NCBI GenBank assembly: GCA_022564295.1 | Contig: JADFLR010000015.1 | Coordinates: forward strand, 1-64,000 | Direction: 5' to 3' | DNA length: 64,000 nucleotides | Source of the DNA: Bacteroidota bacterium | GTDB lineage: Bacteria > Bacteroidota > Ignavibacteria > Ignavibacteriales > Ignavibacteriaceae | Part shown: positions 6,776 through 15,333 of the stretch, one piece after another | Numbering within the stretch: the stretch's first letter is position 1 | Layout of the letters: each line of letters begins with the position of its first letter | Notes under the pieces: model-generated | What the model was told of the DNA's origin: nothing | Database searches by the model: none | What the model saw: the letters and a program-made list of their open reading frames with translations, nothing else | Position numbers and translations under genes: made by a program

Positions 6776-7174
6776 ATGGAATTAATAGATATAATTAAGT
6801 CGAGTATATTGCTGTTCAGTCTGCTACTATTAACTATAGTTTTTATTTCGTTTGGTTTATTCAAAATCAGAAATCAAGCCAAAGATAAAAGACTTACAGT
6901 AAAGAAATCTACAGAAAAGGAAATTTTACCGATAGATGTGGAGAGAGCTAAAGAATTAAATATCGAACAGGAAGAATTACATACCGGAGATAAGTATGTG
7001 GCTGGTAAAAAAAATATAGATGGGGAGAAATTTGTTATTATCAACGAAAACATAAAATCCGCACAGGTTCGTAATTTTCGTGTGAATTACCATCCAAATG
7101 TTTATAAATTTTATGGTGATTTGAACTGTAAAATTATGTTTAAAATAAAGCCTGGAACCAGCACTCACTCTTAA
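6776..7174 (+). CDS. Uncharacterised protein with one N-terminal membrane helix
   Basis: 132 residues. A hydrophobic helix (about 9-29, ILLFSLLLLTIVFISFGLF) is followed by a basic, then charged soluble domain containing GDKYVAGKKNIDGEKFV and NFRVNYHPNVYKFYGDL. I recognise no family. It stands alone, 127 bases upstream of the copper regulator on the same strand, and I see no sign it belongs to that system. Codon usage is like its neighbours. Confidence 0.55.
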   Translation: MELIDIIKSSILLFSLLLLTIVFISFGLFKIRNQAKDKRLTVKKSTEKEILPIDVERAKELNIEQEELHTGDKYVAGKKNIDGEKFVIINENIKSAQVRNFRVNYHPNVYKFYGDLNCKIMFKIKPGTSTHS

Positions 7175-7301
7175 AGAAACGAATTGATTTATAATCTATT
7201 CTGATAAACCTCGCAATTCCCCAATCTTATAACTCACAATTTCCACAAGCTAATTTATTTTGATCATATTTTTTTTTACATTAGGTTAAAACTATAAATT
7301 A

Positions 7302-7880
7302 ATGATGAGGAAAACATTACATATTAAAAACATGGTTTGTAACCGCTGCATAAAAGTTGTGCGCGAAGAGTTGGAAAAACTGGATTACACGGTCGAGAAA
7401 ATTGAACTTGGCGAAGTAGTTATAATGAGCGACAAAAAGAAATTTCAGCTCGATAAAATAAAAAAATCGTTTGAGGAAAACGGTTTTGAATTAATCGACA
7501 GCAGAAAGGCAAACATAATTGAACGTGTAAAAATTTTAATTATAAAACTTATTCATCATAATTCTACAGAAACTCAGTCTAATCTTAATCTACATGATGA
7601 AATAATTAAAGAAGCCGGGTTGAGTTATCAGTATGTTAGTTCGTTGTTCTCTTCTATGGAAGGAATTACAATAGAAAAATTTATTATACATCAGAAGATT
7701 GAAAAGGTGAAGGAATTAATTGTTTACGATGAACTGACATTGAGTGAGATTGCTTACAGACTTGAATACAGCAGCGTGCAGCATTTATCAAACCAATTTA
7801 AAAAAGTAACCGGGCTGTCTCCAAGTTATTTTAAAAAACTTAAATCGAAAAAAAGAAAACCCCTCGACACAATACTCTGA
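7302..7880 (+). CDS. Metal-sensing AraC-type regulator with N-terminal HMA domain
   Basis: 192 residues in two parts. Residues 1-70 are a heavy-metal-associated domain with the metal-binding Cys13-x-x-Cys16 (MVCNRC). Residues about 98-185 form an AraC-type double helix-turn-helix ending LSEIAYRLEYSSVQHLSNQFKKVTG, the conserved second helix-turn-helix. The usual AraC sensory domain is absent, so the HMA domain probably senses the metal, most likely Cu(I) because a CopZ-type chaperone and a CopA-type ATPase follow on the same strand. Whether it activates or represses them is not visible. Two adjacent ATGs (7302, 7305) could start it. Confidence 0.88.
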   Translation: MMRKTLHIKNMVCNRCIKVVREELEKLDYTVEKIELGEVVIMSDKKKFQLDKIKKSFEENGFELIDSRKANIIERVKILIIKLIHHNSTETQSNLNLHDEIIKEAGLSYQYVSSLFSSMEGITIEKFIIHQKIEKVKELIVYDELTLSEIAYRLEYSSVQHLSNQFKKVTGLSPSYFKKLKSKKRKPLDTIL

Positions 7881-7918
7881 TCTGAAAATTTTATAAAACT
7901 TTCCCTTTGTTTTGTAAC

Positions 7919-7966
7919 TAATAATTTTAATAAGGTTTTATATTTTATATGTAAATAAAATTATTA
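7919..7966. promoter_or_regulatory. Inverted repeat upstream of the copper chaperone gene
   Basis: Arms TAATAATTTTA (7919-7929) and TAAAATTATTA (7956-7966) are perfectly complementary and lie just ahead of the AGAGGAAG ribosome binding site of the copper chaperone gene. It could be the operator of the upstream HMA-AraC regulator or a leader hairpin. The region is very AT-rich, so chance pairing is possible. Confidence 0.3.
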
Positions 7967-7984
7967 ATAGCCAGAGGAAGAACA

Positions 7985-8182
7985 ATGGAAAAGGAATTTA
8001 AAATTGAAGGAATGAGCTGCGGTCATTGTGTGTTGGCTGTGGAAAAAGAGCTTAATAAATTAGATATTAAAAATAAGAAGGTGGAAATTGGTTCTGCTAA
8101 AATTGAATTCCATCCGGATAAAGTAAGCGAAGAAGATATTAAAAACTCAATTACTGAAGCCGGTTACACTGTAACTGAATAA
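7985..8182 (+). CDS. copZ: CopZ-like copper chaperone (HMA domain)
   Basis: 65 residues, one HMA domain with the metal site GMSCGHC (Cys12, Cys15) and the ferredoxin-like pattern through EAGYTV at the end. It is expected to carry Cu(I) in the cytoplasm and hand it to the P-type ATPase encoded 21 bases downstream. A clear AGAGGAAG precedes the ATG. The Gly-His before the second Cys differs from the ATPase's CASC but is normal for chaperones. Confidence 0.9.
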   Translation: MEKEFKIEGMSCGHCVLAVEKELNKLDIKNKKVEIGSAKIEFHPDKVSEEDIKNSITEAGYTVTE

Positions 8183-8203
8183 AGAGAAAACGATTTATAT
8201 AAA

Positions 8204-10465
8204 ATGACTGAGATTATAACACAAAAAATAAAAACGGAAAAAATCTCTCTGCCAGTTGAGGGAATGACTTGTGCAAGCTGTGTTGCAAGAGTTGAAAAAT
8301 CTATCAAGAAAATAGATGGTGTGGAATATGTGGCTGTAAATCTTGCTTCCGAAAAAGCAACGTTAAGCATAGATAAATCGAAAGTAAATAATGAGGATAT
8401 AAAAAATGCAGTGGAAGAAGCAGGATACAAAGTTGATCTGTCATCCTTTGAAAAAGATGAAAAGCATTCTTCCGCAGAAGAAGATTCCGGTAAAATTTCA
8501 GATTACGACTTAATTCTAAAAAAAGATTTTCTCTTAGCGCTGATCCTTACCATTCCTATTTTCATACTTAGTATGAGCCAATTGTTTAATGGAATAAGAG
8601 AAGTAATTCCATTGTCTGCCTCTCAGCTAAATAAAATTTTGCTGATACTGACAACACCAGTTATTTTTATTTCGGGTAAAAGATTTTATAAATTTTTCTG
8701 GAATAACTTAAAACACTTTACTGCCGATATGAACTCACTTGTTGCAGTAGGAACAGGTGCGGCATTTTCATTCAGTGTTCTTATAACTTTATTCCCGGAA
8801 CTGATTTTAAAAGCAGGAGAAATTCCGCATGTTTATTTCGATACGACTGTTGTTATTATCACTTTGATATTAATGGGCAAATGGCTGGAAGCGAGAGCAA
8901 AATCCAAAACCGGTTCGGCAATTAAAAAATTAATTGCGCTTAAACCAAAAACTGCTCTTATCAAAACCGCTGAAGGTGAAAAGGTTATCAATATTGATGA
9001 ATTAATAATCGGTGATATTGTAATTGTAAAACCGGGTGAAAAAATTCCTGCCGATGGAAAAATAATAAACGGATATTCAACTGTTGATGAATCAATGCTG
9101 ACAGGCGAAAGTTTTCCCGTTGAGAAAACTTCGGAATCGAAAATATTTGGCGGTTCGATAAACAGGTTCGGCACATTTGAATTTGAAGTTTCCGCAATCG
9201 GGAAGGCCTCTGTTCTCGGAAGGATAATCACTCTTGTTGAAGAAGCACAGGGCTCAAAAGCACCTATTCAAAAATTAGCCGATAAAGTAGCAGCAATCTT
9301 TGTTCCGATAGTTATAGTTATTTCTATTGTTACTTTTATACTCTGGATTATTTTGGGCGGTGAAAATTATTTTACTTTTGCTCTAATAAATTTTGTTGCA
9401 GTGCTTATAATTGCCTGCCCCTGCGCAATGGGTTTAGCTACTCCAACTGCATTAATAGTAGGAATTGGTAAAGGTGCCGAAAGCGGAATTTTAATTAAAG
9501 ATGGAGAGCATTTAGAATTAGCACATAAAATAAAAACAGTTTTATTCGATAAAACGGGAACAATTACGGAAGGCAAGCCCGTTGTAAGCAAAATAATCAC
9601 CAACGGTTATGATGAAAATGAATTGCTCAAACTTACAGCTTCACTCGAAAAAAGATCGGAACATCCCTTAGCAGAAGCCATAGTTAATTATGCTGATACA
9701 AAGGGAATTACAATTCCTATCCCAAAAGAATTTGAAAGTACAACAGGCTTTGGATTGATAGGAAAAGTCGAGGATAAAAAAATTATCATCGGCAGTAAAA
9801 ATTTTCTCTCGAATCACAATGTAACTTCAAACCATTTTGAAGGAAAAGCTTATGATCTTTCTTCCGAAGGAAAAACTGTTGTATATGTTGCAATAGCTGG
9901 TAAATCTGCAGGAATAATTGCAATTGAAGACCCGATTAAGAATACTTCGACTGATGCAATCCAAAAGCTGAAATCATTAAACATAAAAACAATTATGATT
10001 ACGGGCGATAACAAACGCAGTGCCGGGCATATAGCAAAACAATTAGGCTTAGATGATTATGAAGCGGAAGTACTGCCTGAGGATAAATCAAACATAGTTG
10101 CAAAGTATCAGAAGCAGGGTGAAATTATTGCGATGGTTGGCGACGGGATAAATGATGCTCCGGCACTTGCACAGGCAAATGTAGGTATTGCAATCGGTAC
10201 GGGCACAGATGTTGCGATTGAAACCGGAGATATTGTTTTAATGAAAGGTGATTTGATGGGTGTTGTCAACGCAATAAAGTTATCGAAGGCAACCATTAAA
10301 ACGATTAAACAAAATTTGTTCTGGGCATTTATTTATAATACAGTTGGGATTCCTTTAGCGGCAGTCGGTTTGCTTAATCCTATGTTTGCAGCATTAGCGA
10401 TGGCATTTAGTTCTGTGTCGGTAATTTCAAATTCGCTTCGATTAAAAAAAATCAAATTGCGATGA
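8204..10465 (+). CDS. copA: Copper-translocating P1B-type ATPase
   Basis: 753 residues. One N-terminal HMA domain (GMTCASC, Cys23 and Cys26) precedes eight predicted membrane helices. The transmembrane metal site is Cys-Pro-Cys at about 405-407; the phosphorylated Asp is in DKTGT at about 449; the TGES actuator loop, SEHP nucleotide-binding motif and GDGINDAP hinge are all intact. CPC and the chaperone context point to Cu(I) export from the cytoplasm to the periplasm. It ends three bases before a convergent gene. Part of it is duplicated as a pseudogene at about 11717-12187. Confidence 0.96.
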   Translation: MTEIITQKIKTEKISLPVEGMTCASCVARVEKSIKKIDGVEYVAVNLASEKATLSIDKSKVNNEDIKNAVEEAGYKVDLSSFEKDEKHSSAEEDSGKISDYDLILKKDFLLALILTIPIFILSMSQLFNGIREVIPLSASQLNKILLILTTPVIFISGKRFYKFFWNNLKHFTADMNSLVAVGTGAAFSFSVLITLFPELILKAGEIPHVYFDTTVVIITLILMGKWLEARAKSKTGSAIKKLIALKPKTALIKTAEGEKVINIDELIIGDIVIVKPGEKIPADGKIINGYSTVDESMLTGESFPVEKTSESKIFGGSINRFGTFEFEVSAIGKASVLGRIITLVEEAQGSKAPIQKLADKVAAIFVPIVIVISIVTFILWIILGGENYFTFALINFVAVLIIACPCAMGLATPTALIVGIGKGAESGILIKDGEHLELAHKIKTVLFDKTGTITEGKPVVSKIITNGYDENELLKLTASLEKRSEHPLAEAIVNYADTKGITIPIPKEFESTTGFGLIGKVEDKKIIIGSKNFLSNHNVTSNHFEGKAYDLSSEGKTVVYVAIAGKSAGIIAIEDPIKNTSTDAIQKLKSLNIKTIMITGDNKRSAGHIAKQLGLDDYEAEVLPEDKSNIVAKYQKQGEIIAMVGDGINDAPALAQANVGIAIGTGTDVAIETGDIVLMKGDLMGVVNAIKLSKATIKTIKQNLFWAFIYNTVGIPLAAVGLLNPMFAALAMAFSSVSVISNSLRLKKIKLR

Positions 10466-10468
10466 AAA

Positions 10469-11668
10469 TTATTTCAGCAAAACAAGTTTCTTGGATTGGG
10501 TCTTGCTTCCCTGAGAGAGCGTATAAAAATAAACTCCACTGCTTAATCCAGATGCATCAAATACAACTTCATAGGTTCCTGCTGGTTTAAATTCATTTAT
10601 AAGTGTCGAAACATTATTCCCAAGTAAATTGTAAACTATTAATTTTACTTTCTCTTTCATATCTCCTTTTGATGATCTTTCATCAATAGTAAAACTTATT
10701 TTAGTTGTTGGGTTAAATGGATTGGGGAAATTTTGATAAAGATAAAATCTTTGCGGTTGTGCACCATCAACATCTGAAACTGATGTTGGATTGTAAACAG
10801 GACCAAATACAATGCTGTTAGGTGCTTGCATTCCTCCACCACTCGAGAAGATTTGTATAAAAGCCCCGGATGAATCATATTGATTGATTCTATTCTGAGT
10901 CCAATCACATATATAAATATTCCCCGACTCATCAAATGTTACTCCTTCTGCATTTGTTAATCCGCTTATAAACTCACCTATAAATTTTCCATCAATGGAG
11001 TTAAATTTCAATACTTTCCCTAATGACCAATCAAGTACAAATAATGCCCCGCCATCAAACCATAAGTTAACCGCACCTTGCAGATGGCCCGTTTCTGTAA
11101 AAACACCAATATAAGTTCCGTTTGTATCAAATTTTTTAACATCGGCGGAACCAAAACTTGCAACATAAAGATTACCTGAGCTATCCCAAGCATGTCCACA
11201 TCCCTGGTTTAATCCAATTGAAGTAAACTCGTCAACAAATTCACCTGAAAGTGAATTAAATCTTACAACTTTATTTTGCTGGGATCCCCACTGACTGACA
11301 TATAAATTTCCATCAGATCCAAATGTCATTTTTGTAGGATTGTCCAGTTGATAACCAGTTGTAAAATTACCGATAAACTCACCGGTTGAACGATCGTATT
11401 TTAGTATCGTCGTATTCGCTCTTCCACTTACATATAAATGTCCGTCAGGACCGAACGCAACTTCTTGAGTTGAATTCAATCCCCCCAAGCCGGACTGGAC
11501 AAAATCGGCAATGTATGCTCCTTTTTCCCCATCAAAAACTTTAACTGAATTTGTGTTACGACTGCTAACATAAAGATCGCTATTACTTTGTTGTGCCTCA
11601 ATTTTATGAAATACATAAAAGATAAAAACTATGCAGAGTATTCTATAGAGCAATTTAAATATATACAT
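10469..11668 (-). CDS. Secreted NHL-type beta-propeller protein with T9SS C-terminal sorting domain
   Basis: 399 residues. A signal peptide (hydrophobic to about residue 24, ending IEAQ) is followed by about six repeats of the form LYVSxxxxNxVxKFDSxxGxFIGEF with GxVTFDESGNIYICDW, typical of NHL/SMP-30-like propellers. The last 90 residues contain NFPNPFNPTT and end in SKKLVLLK, a type IX secretion sorting domain. Exported, probably surface-bound; ligand unknown. It lies between intact copA (convergent, three bases apart) and a decayed copA fragment, so a duplication event included or flanked this gene. Confidence 0.88.
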   Translation of the reverse strand: MYIFKLLYRILCIVFIFYVFHKIEAQQSNSDLYVSSRNTNSVKVFDGEKGAYIADFVQSGLGGLNSTQEVAFGPDGHLYVSGRANTTILKYDRSTGEFIGNFTTGYQLDNPTKMTFGSDGNLYVSQWGSQQNKVVRFNSLSGEFVDEFTSIGLNQGCGHAWDSSGNLYVASFGSADVKKFDTNGTYIGVFTETGHLQGAVNLWFDGGALFVLDWSLGKVLKFNSIDGKFIGEFISGLTNAEGVTFDESGNIYICDWTQNRINQYDSSGAFIQIFSSGGGMQAPNSIVFGPVYNPTSVSDVDGAQPQRFYLYQNFPNPFNPTTKISFTIDERSSKGDMKEKVKLIVYNLLGNNVSTLINEFKPAGTYEVVFDASGLSSGVYFYTLSQGSKTQSKKLVLLK

Positions 11669-11716
11669 TTTTAATATACCTGAAAGTGTTTAACAGTTTC
11701 TTATTAAAATAGATAT

Positions 11717-12187
11717 CATTCATCAATAATATCAAACCAAAAATTGCTCTGATCAAAAGCAATAAAGGTAAAATAGTTATTAATATTAAAGAATTAATAA
11801 TCGGTGATATTGTAATTGTAAAACCGGTTGAAAAATTACCTGCCGATTGAATAGTAATAAACGGAGATTCAGCTATTGATGAATCGATGCTTACAGGTGA
11901 AAGATTTCCCGTTGAGAAAACTTCGGAATCGAAAAAATTTGGCTGGACGATAAAAAGATTCGGCACATATTAATTTGAAGTCACCGCAATTGGGAAAGTC
12001 TCAAATCTCGGAAAGAAAATCACTCTCGTTGAATAAGCATAGTGTCCAAAAGCACCTTTTCAATAATTAGCCAGCAAAGTAGCTCCAATCGACTGGCTTA
12101 ATCCTATTATTGCAGCATTAGCGAGGACATTAAGTTCTGTGTCGGTAATTTCAAATTCGCTTCGATAAAAAAAATTCAAGTTTTATA
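11717..12187 (+). pseudogene. Decayed internal-deletion copy of copA
   Basis: Forward-strand sequence aligns base for base with copA around 8935-9300 (GDIVIVKP, DESMLTGE, FPVEKTSESK are readable) and then, near 12090, jumps to the copA 3' end around 10370-10460 (LNP...AALA, SVSVISNSLR). About 1.07 kb of the middle is missing. In-frame stops are present, for example TGA in CCGATTGA and TAA in CATATTAAT, and several small substitutions occur, so it cannot make a pump. The DNA similarity remains high, which points to a fairly recent duplication. Confidence 0.85.
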
Positions 12188-12423
12188 GGACAGGACTAAT
12201 TGTCGACAGGAGAATATTCTATTAAAAAATTATATTTAGGATAACCTTGGGAAAATTCTTTCTTCGATTTTAAACATTTCTTTTTCAAATTAAAGAATAT
12301 TTGTTTTTTTTCGATAATTTAAAATGAATTATAATGTCTGAAAACAAAAAATAATATTATAATAAATGACATTATCGATAAACTATCTAATACGAAAATT
12401 TAATAATCAACTGAGGGAATAAA

Positions 12424-13302
12424 ATGTCTGAATACCTTAAGATGGATTCAACCAAAGCCGAAGTTACGGTCAAGAGATTACAGAATATCAGCCAGTTGCC
12501 TGCAATACCAAAGGTAATAACTGAAGTATCAAAATTATTTAGTAATCCTAACACTTCGATTACACAATTATCTGATATAATTGAAAAAGACCAGGCACTT
12601 ACACTAAAAGTCCTTTCTGTAGCTAACTCACCTTTATACGGTATTCAAAGGGAGATTAATTCACTACATGCAGCTATACTAATATTAGGTTTTCAGGAAT
12701 TGAGAAGTATTGTTACTGCGTTGGGAATGAAAATGTCTTTTAAAACTACATCCAGTGAATATTTTGATTTTCACGAATTTTGGTTACACTCGATGGTTGT
12801 GGGAATTGCTGCAAAAAGAATAACAAAGGAACTAGGCTTCCATTTTGATGGTGATTCGTTTACTGCAGGGATATTACATGATTTCGGATTGCTGGTATTA
12901 CACGAATATTTGCAGGATAGTTATGAGAAAATTCTACTCCATGCAACTGAAAATAATATCGATATTCTGGAAGCTGAATATAAAGTACTTGGTTTATCCC
13001 ATCAGGAAATTGGAAATTTCCTTGCCAAAAAATGGTCGCTGACTTCTACGCTAAATGATTCTCTTACATTTCATCATCGACCTGCTGAATCATTAAAAAA
13101 TAATTACCTCACCTCTATAATTCATATTGCTGATTATGCAACTCAAAAATTACAAATTGGAAATTTCTTTTGGGATAACAATTACAAGTTAGATTCATCA
13201 GTACTATCATTGTTAAATTTTGTTACCCGTGAGGAATTTGAGGATTTTATAGAAGCATATAGGGAAGATTTTGCATTAACTGCATCTACCGTGAAGTTAT
13301 AA
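12424..13302 (+). CDS. HDOD-domain signalling protein
   Basis: 292 residues, one HDOD domain covering about 15-215: LPAIPKVITEVSKL, the SPLYG segment, LGFQELRSIV, FWLHSMVVG and GILHDFGLLVL. HDOD proteins are relatives of HD phosphohydrolases that usually lack the full metal site and act in signalling, often with second messengers or kinases (family knowledge). Here HD occurs in GILHDFG, and the first conserved residue pattern of active HD enzymes is incomplete. No partner gene is adjacent; the hybrid kinases lie 22 kb away. Start ATG at 12424 is preceded by GAGGGAATAAA. Confidence 0.88.
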   Translation: MSEYLKMDSTKAEVTVKRLQNISQLPAIPKVITEVSKLFSNPNTSITQLSDIIEKDQALTLKVLSVANSPLYGIQREINSLHAAILILGFQELRSIVTALGMKMSFKTTSSEYFDFHEFWLHSMVVGIAAKRITKELGFHFDGDSFTAGILHDFGLLVLHEYLQDSYEKILLHATENNIDILEAEYKVLGLSHQEIGNFLAKKWSLTSTLNDSLTFHHRPAESLKNNYLTSIIHIADYATQKLQIGNFFWDNNYKLDSSVLSLLNFVTREEFEDFIEAYREDFALTASTVKL

Positions 13303-13420
13303 ATTAGAAGGCCCTACAAATAAATCCGATAGTTATTTTACCGCACATACATCTAATGGGGATCTAATCACTTTAACATTAATTTTGTTGATTTATACAA
13401 TGATTCTTATCTAATCACTT

Positions 13421-13663
13421 TTAGAATAAAGCGGCAAAGGCATAACTGTTTTCAGTTTTAGATCTGATTTGCGCGGGAGCGAATTCTAAACCAAGTGACG
13501 GCACTCCAATCCATACATTAAGATTTGGATCTTCATCATCATCTTTATGATGGCCTGTTCTTATCTTAGCCGGCGCTTCATCAATAATTTGGTTGATAGT
13601 TTCTTTATCATTATAACCACGAGATGGAAGTCGGCTAATCTTTGAACGATGAGAATTATTCAT
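13421..13663 (-). pseudogene. Deletion remnant of a pyridoxamine 5'-phosphate oxidase-family flavoprotein
   Basis: About 80 residues from ATG at 13661-13663. SRLPSRGYNDKETINQIIDEA looks like the extreme N-terminus of this split-barrel flavoprotein family, and the directly following AKIRTGHHKDDDEDPNLNVW matches the usual C-terminal AKVRTGPPKDDEEDYALPVW as I recall it. The roughly 130 residues between, which form the flavin-binding barrel, are missing. This looks like an in-frame deletion joining two similar E-A-(S/P)-A segments. A longer reading from 13720 would overlap the upstream gene and lacks support. A functional mini-protein cannot be excluded. Confidence 0.65.
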
Positions 13664-13710
13664 TTTATGGTGATTCCAATTATAGAATATTTGAGTGAAA
13701 ATTAAAAAAC

Positions 13711-14118
13711 TTATAAGCATTTATGAATCAATGGGTCAACTCCACGGGTTAATGAAAACGTATCAATTTCAGTATCGGTGTCTGTTATTACCAATATCAA
13801 AGTCATTTCATTCCCAACAATATGCCCTTTATATAATGCCGGGTGCTCATCCGGTGTTTCATCAATTCTGATTGCTCCTCCATGCTCAAATACATGAACT
13901 CCGCGAACTTCAAACTTACCGTCATCATCAGGAATTATTGGCTCATCAATGGTACCATGTGCGCAATCATATACAAGAGTTGCACTACTATCTGAAACAA
14001 CTATACCGATATGCTCCCCGCCCCACTTACCCGTTAAATCAATTTGTGAAATGCTACTGCATCCACAAAAAATCCAAATTATTAGTAACAGAGAAATGTT
14101 TAAAAATAATTTTTTCAT
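13711..14118 (-). CDS. Conserved small lipoprotein of unknown function
   Basis: 135 residues. The N-terminus MKKLFLNISLLLIIW is followed by the lipobox-like FCGC with Cys20, so it should be an outer- or inner-membrane lipoprotein. The mature part has TGKWGGEHIGIVV, YDCAHGTIDEPI and VFEHGGAIR, a pattern I recall from a widespread uncharacterised family with a lipocalin-like beta pattern. The gene is directly followed by the flavoprotein remnant on the same strand. No function can be assigned. Confidence 0.7.
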   Translation of the reverse strand: MKKLFLNISLLLIIWIFCGCSSISQIDLTGKWGGEHIGIVVSDSSATLVYDCAHGTIDEPIIPDDDGKFEVRGVHVFEHGGAIRIDETPDEHPALYKGHIVGNEMTLILVITDTDTEIDTFSLTRGVDPLIHKCL

Positions 14119-14316
14119 CAGTAATCCTTAATTATTATTGAAATAATTAACACTATTATTAAGAGGATATATCGTACTTTTTAAAATAATTTAACTAACT
14201 CTACTTTTTGTGATTGGTTTAATCTTGCTCCTTTCAATCGACTGAAATGCAAGATATTTTTTAATAAACTTTTTCATATTATTAGCCCAGTGCTAAACTA
14301 ATGGAATGGCTGAAAG

Positions 14317-15333
14317 CTATTTCTTGGGTAGTCTTTCCAAAAATGAACTGTTACTAAGAACTGTAAAAGAATTCTTTTCTCTTAATTCATTAAGATTTAA
14401 ACAATTCATATAGCTCATAGAACTTTTTAAACCGTCTGAAATTCCATCAATCACATTTTTAACAGCACCTTTATATGGCACCATAGTTTCTTCACCTTCG
14501 ATGAACTCATTTTTCATTTTTACACCAAAAGAAGCTGAACCACGATATTTTTTCCACAACTGATCATCATACTTTATTACCTCGCCAGGCGTTTCCTTTG
14601 TGCCTGCAAACATTCTTCCGAGCATAGCAGCATCTGCACCCAGTGCAATAGCTTTTAAAACATCTCCCGGGCTTTTTATCCCCCCATCTGCAATTATTTT
14701 TATATCCAGTTTTTTTTCATCACGAGCAAATAAAACATCGAGTAAAGAAGTTACCTGCCCGATACCAATTCCCGTTTGAATACTTGTAGTACAAACACTC
14801 CCGCTGCCAATTCCTACTCTTACCGCATCAGCACCTGCACTCTGCAGTTGATCTAAAGTTGCTCCGTGGGCGATGTTTCCGACAATTATTCTTACATTAA
14901 ATCTTTTTTTAATCTCTTCAGCTTTGTGCAGCACTTCGTGATTATTTGCATTTGCAGTATCGATACAAATTATATAATTATGGCTTACAAGTTTTTCTAT
15001 TACATCAATAGCTGTATTGAGCGCAATAGAAACTGCCTTTATTTCCTTTCCGTTGCTGTCATCTTCCAATATTTTTTTTAATGAAGAATCGAAGCGATTG
15101 AGGATACCGAGACAACCCAGGTTGGTAAGTTCCTTAGCCATATCTAATCCCGTAACAGATTCCATCGGACTTGATATAACGGGTTGCAGCAGTTCCTCTT
15201 GCAAAAATTCAGTAGATGTATCAACTTCTTTTCTGGATTTTATTCTACTTATTTCAGTCGGAATTAAACTTATATCATCGTAAGTGAGCGATTGATAGTA
15301 TTCGTTCAATTCATTTTTATCGTATATCTTCAT
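14317..15333 (-). CDS. IMP dehydrogenase/GMP reductase family enzyme without CBS domains
   Basis: 338 residues, a TIM-barrel purine nucleotide oxidoreductase. The catalytic loop is GIGSGSVCTTSIQTG with Cys181; the phosphate-binding IIADGGIKSPGDVLKAIALGA and the flap region around GSASFG are present. There is no CBS pair between strands, and the length is close to GMP reductase (about 347), so GMP to IMP reduction is likely, but IMP dehydrogenases lacking CBS domains exist. The canonical GPGSxCTTR loop is altered to GSGSVCTTS (Arg to Ser), which is unusual. It stands alone between lipoprotein and pepF genes. Confidence 0.82.
   Translation of the reverse strand: MKIYDKNELNEYYQSLTYDDISLIPTEISRIKSRKEVDTSTEFLQEELLQPVISSPMESVTGLDMAKELTNLGCLGILNRFDSSLKKILEDDSNGKEIKAVSIALNTAIDVIEKLVSHNYIICIDTANANNHEVLHKAEEIKKRFNVRIIVGNIAHGATLDQLQSAGADAVRVGIGSGSVCTTSIQTGIGIGQVTSLLDVLFARDEKKLDIKIIADGGIKSPGDVLKAIALGADAAMLGRMFAGTKETPGEVIKYDDQLWKKYRGSASFGVKMKNEFIEGEETMVPYKGAVKNVIDGISDGLKSSMSYMNCLNLNELREKNSFTVLSNSSFLERLPKK

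Follow-up and report, generated by a model that had tools for sequence, protein, structure and literature searches.

The window analysed here (64,000 nucleotides of DNA from a Bacteroidota bacterium of the Ignavibacteriaceae, assembly GCA_022564295.1, contig JADFLR010000015.1, positions 1-64,000 of the forward strand) carries an intact copA gene and, downstream of it, the remains of a second copy. The relic is an ordinary duplicate pseudogene of copA: it has similarity to a functional paralogue, its reading frame is disrupted and it has lost purifying selection, three of the features that mark that class. We think it very probable that it began as a tandem duplicate of copA, that an NHL gene ended up between the copies, and that the downstream copy decayed and suffered a repeat-mediated deletion.

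The parent gene, copA (8204-10465, plus strand), encodes a P1B-type ATPase of 753 aa with an HMA domain (Pfam HMA, E1-E2_ATPase and Hydrolase), and its orthologues in the related genomes G004 and G003 have 80% and 67% protein identity respectively. The relic consists of two blocks, both colinear with copA and in the same orientation, that align to it without gaps. Block 1 (11734-12090, plus strand) corresponds to copA 8942-9298, with 301 of 357 nucleotides identical (84%, E 1e-108), and block 2 (12080-12182, plus strand) to copA 10356-10458, with 89 of 103 identical (86%, E 1e-29), so that what is left represents parental codons 247-365 and 718-752. Read in the copA frame there are six stops, five in block 1 (TGA at 11848, TAA at 11971, 12034 and 12064, and TAG at 12040) and one in block 2 (TAA at 12166). 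The initial annotation had described a copA pseudogene with an internal deletion, in which high similarity goes with in-frame stops, placing the matches at copA 8935-9300 and 10370-10460 and the junction near 12090, and had said that the absence of an alignment in a formal comparison would count against it. Those coordinates are correct to within about 15 nt, and the two alignments, the stops and a direct repeat at the junction all support that description. When 11717-12187 was searched against the whole genome, the only hits were the relic itself and the two copA blocks.

As the two blocks overlap at 12080-12090 (plus strand), a single copy of an imperfect 11-nt direct repeat was retained, and the deletion took the other copy and everything between the two (copA 9288-9298 and 10356-10366), a loss of 1068 nt, which is a multiple of three. 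The initial annotation had pointed to the junction as a place to look for short direct repeats, and when breakpoint pairs were drawn at random in copA, 33 of 20,000 had a repeat as good as this one. At the protein level the two repeats give hydrophobic stretches that resemble each other, VAAI and LAAV. Deletions at short repeats are common in bacterial pseudogenes. The CPC metal site and the DKTG phosphorylation site are the defining motifs of a functional CopA, and both regions are within copA 9299-10355, the part deleted from the relic, which also lacks the HMA domain and could not encode the pump. PMC10292909 was searched for terms on repeats and has none of them, and the literature, as far as it was accessible, gave nothing directly on point.

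The changes in the relic were polarised with the orthologous copA of G004, sites with a third base in G004 being dropped. There are 45 polarised changes on the relic branch, of which 33 are nonsynonymous, 6 are stops and 6 are synonymous (39 of 45 nonsynonymous or stop), and 17 on the functional copA branch, 8 nonsynonymous and 9 synonymous, with the proviso that the polarising relative is near saturation at synonymous sites, so that synonymous changes are undercounted. The relic-branch changes are distributed over codon positions 1, 2 and 3 as 22, 13 and 10, and the raw differences between relic and copA (over copA 8934-9297 and 10356-10458) likewise fall at all three positions, as 30, 19 and 27. 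The relic is under relaxed selection.

These data also bear on the ORF of 103 aa on the opposite strand (11655-11966, minus strand), which the initial annotation took to be merely the antisense of the relic. We agree, and reject it as a real gene: it has no Pfam match, copA has a counterpart to it, an open antisense frame at 8833-9231 (minus strand) from which it is inherited, and the relic-branch changes show no third-position enrichment (22/13/10), sense position 3 being also antisense position 3 in this ORF.

With regard to age, comparison over 450 sites gives the relic 84.7% identity with the neighbouring copA, 73.3% with that of G004 and 66.9% with that of G003, the copA genes of the window and G004 being 79.6% identical. 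At fourfold sites relic and copA differ at 7 of 57, against 129 of 214 for copA and the copA of G004, and the copy thus arose well after the split from G004, and relatively recently. Against a simple picture of decay, there are no small indels among the 67 differences over the 449 nt of the relic blocks; freely decaying DNA usually gains small indels too. Taken together, the three longest runs of identity (37, 34 and 31 nt) were equalled in length in only 1.2% of 5,000 permutations (P 0.012), but the longest alone is unremarkable (P 0.13). The runs could reflect patchy gene conversion or constraint, and gene conversion is not needed to account for the relic. The relic and copA differ by 30 transitions and 37 transversions, and the fourfold sites of four orthologue pairs by 84 and 198 (Fisher P 0.02), a contrast that we leave uninterpreted because the orthologue fourfold sites are about 60% different and near saturation.

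In G003 (L030) and G004 (L029) the order is HU - AraC - HMA - copA ... GMP-reductase-like - pepF, and neither locus has the NHL gene, the relic or the HDOD gene that follows it in the window. A wider set, which leaves out the window's own locus, takes one copA locus from each of 29 other family genomes (L033-L061). A gene of the IMPDH/GMP-reductase family is convergent with copA in 18 of these, with 12-1304 nt between the matches, and in the remaining 11 there is no GMP-reductase-like match within the 2-1527 nt covered downstream; G004 is one of the 11, and there the gene is visible in the longer stretch, L029. Within the DNA covered at each locus, NHL matches and second copA fragments are lacking in all 29, and both relic and NHL gene are therefore additions in this lineage. 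The spacer has gained several genes in one lineage and stayed short in many relatives. With a single copA in the relatives over the DNA covered, a duplicate nearby and a copy younger than the split, the situation is that expected of a tandem duplication.

The gene between the copies (10469-11668, minus strand) encodes an NHL/SMP-30-type beta-propeller with a T9SS sorting tail (Pfam SGL, NHL and Por_Secre_tail). The 289-aa C-terminal part of the protein was used to query 60 other sampled genomes of the family and matched none of them at E<=1e-60; the gene has thus either come from outside or diverged strongly. The same protein has 151 matches in its own genome, mostly via the T9SS C-terminal tail, and the set of sorting-tail proteins is very large.

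We infer from the DNA that a tandem duplication of copA, or of its 3' two thirds, took place once this lineage had parted from its nearest sequenced relative, and that the T9SS-tagged NHL gene was placed between the copies before, with or after this step. The downstream copy, being redundant, would have lost its function and accumulated point substitutions without selection, and the 1068 nt would have been lost by recombination or replication slippage between the two short repeats; the relic probably has no present function. It resembles other tandem-duplicate pseudogenes of bacteria in being near a paralogue of the same orientation, in its multiple stops, in its relaxed selection and in a deletion at a short direct repeat, but differs in having a gene without close relatives between parent and relic, and in the lack of small indels. 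We see it as a further clean case of duplication followed by decay via short-repeat deletion.

A fair rival for the origin, which we consider possible but unlikely, is a single-crossover integration, in which recombination between the resident copA and incoming DNA that bore both NHL and copA sequence gave copA, NHL and a partial copA, after which the spare copy decayed. This one step alone yields the observed gene order, and the lack of a close homologue of NHL in the 60 genomes is in keeping with it. However the ORFs between the copies include no obvious plasmid, phage or insertion-sequence gene, and as the relic is closer to the resident copA than to that of G004 (84.7% against 73.3%) any donor would need to be closely related. 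Even under such an integration the relic is still a copA pseudogene.

Some features of the locus do not favour the preferred origin: the flanks of the relic are not alignable, and there is no mark of how the NHL gene arrived. The 5' end of the relic is abrupt, near 11725-11734 and without extension, and copA similarity 5' of about 11725 is not demonstrable, the gapped score of 11669-11733 being reached by 89 of 300 shuffles. The 3' end is at the copA end. The sequence that follows was compared with the spacer of G004, in which the ancestral downstream flank of copA was sought (score 12, reached by 300 of 300 shuffles), and with the tail of the NHL gene (score 16, reached by 246 of 300), and there was no similarity in either case.

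The DNA upstream of the NHL gene, from 11669, runs into the relic, and there is a sigma-70-like site at 11735-11706 on the minus strand that matches at 9 of 12 positions. Both would suit retention of the relic to serve the NHL gene, for example as a minus-strand promoter and leader, but we regard this as very unlikely, as there are 10 promoter-like sites in 10400-12500 where shuffles lead one to expect 9.3, the substitutions in the relic are spread over all positions, and there is no Rfam match in 7000-14500. On the last of these grounds an RNA element at the locus was also rejected.

The initial annotation had proposed either duplication of a copA-NHL gene pair or an insertion between two copies of copA. 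An NHL gene between two copA copies fits the data, but duplication of the two genes as a unit, followed by loss of the second NHL gene, is highly improbable: it is compatible with the order copA-NHL-relic, but the sequence after the relic is unlike the NHL tail and NHL is beside copA in none of the 29 related loci over the DNA covered. An artefact of assembly or binning, for which one could cite a draft genome in 59 contigs, is scarcely credible given that the copies are 15% different with stops only in the relic, far beyond what a collapsed or mis-joined repeat would give, and that the contig carries the syntenic genes present in G003 and G004.

Tandem duplication is our preferred origin for the relic, and there are further changes in the same spacer. 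The HDOD gene (12424-13302, plus strand; Pfam HDOD) is missing from the equivalent spacer of G003 and of G004, and its protein has matches within the genus of 36% identity or less but of about 50% in other genera. It is probably a further lineage-specific insertion. At 13421-13720 (minus strand), 1.2 kb from the copA relic, is the remnant of a pyridoxamine-oxidase-like gene, two DNA blocks of which match an intact gene of G004 (L029:5260-5907, Pfam Pyridox_ox_2) around an in-frame internal deletion of 384 nt; the remnant itself has no Pyridox_ox_2 match. The junction has a near-repeat equalled by 61 of 20,000 random pairs, the repeat being read from the gene of a relative and not from the true ancestor, and this pattern of repeat-bounded, in-frame deletion resembles that of the copA relic. 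We suggest that in annotation neither the minus-strand ORF at 11655-11966 nor the ORF at 13421-13720 (99 aa if miscalled) be called an intact gene.

The spacer that runs from copA to the GMP-reductase-like gene may, though this is unlikely, be a small hotspot of turnover, which would have gained NHL, HDOD and the copA duplicate and have had two remnants cut by in-frame, repeat-bounded deletions of 1068 and 384 nt. If it is, a path of decay in which a frame-preserving deletion precedes the stops may apply, or alternatively the intact copA may, by partial gene conversion, keep short tracts of the relic identical.

On the other side of copA is a gene for an AraC-type regulator (7302-7880, plus strand), which is beside copA here and in many members of the family. 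Its N-terminus has a CxxC stretch like that of heavy-metal-associated domains, to which Pfam gives no score, and there is a weak tblastn match of the HMA protein within the G003 orthologue. It is possibly a metal-sensing regulator of copA.
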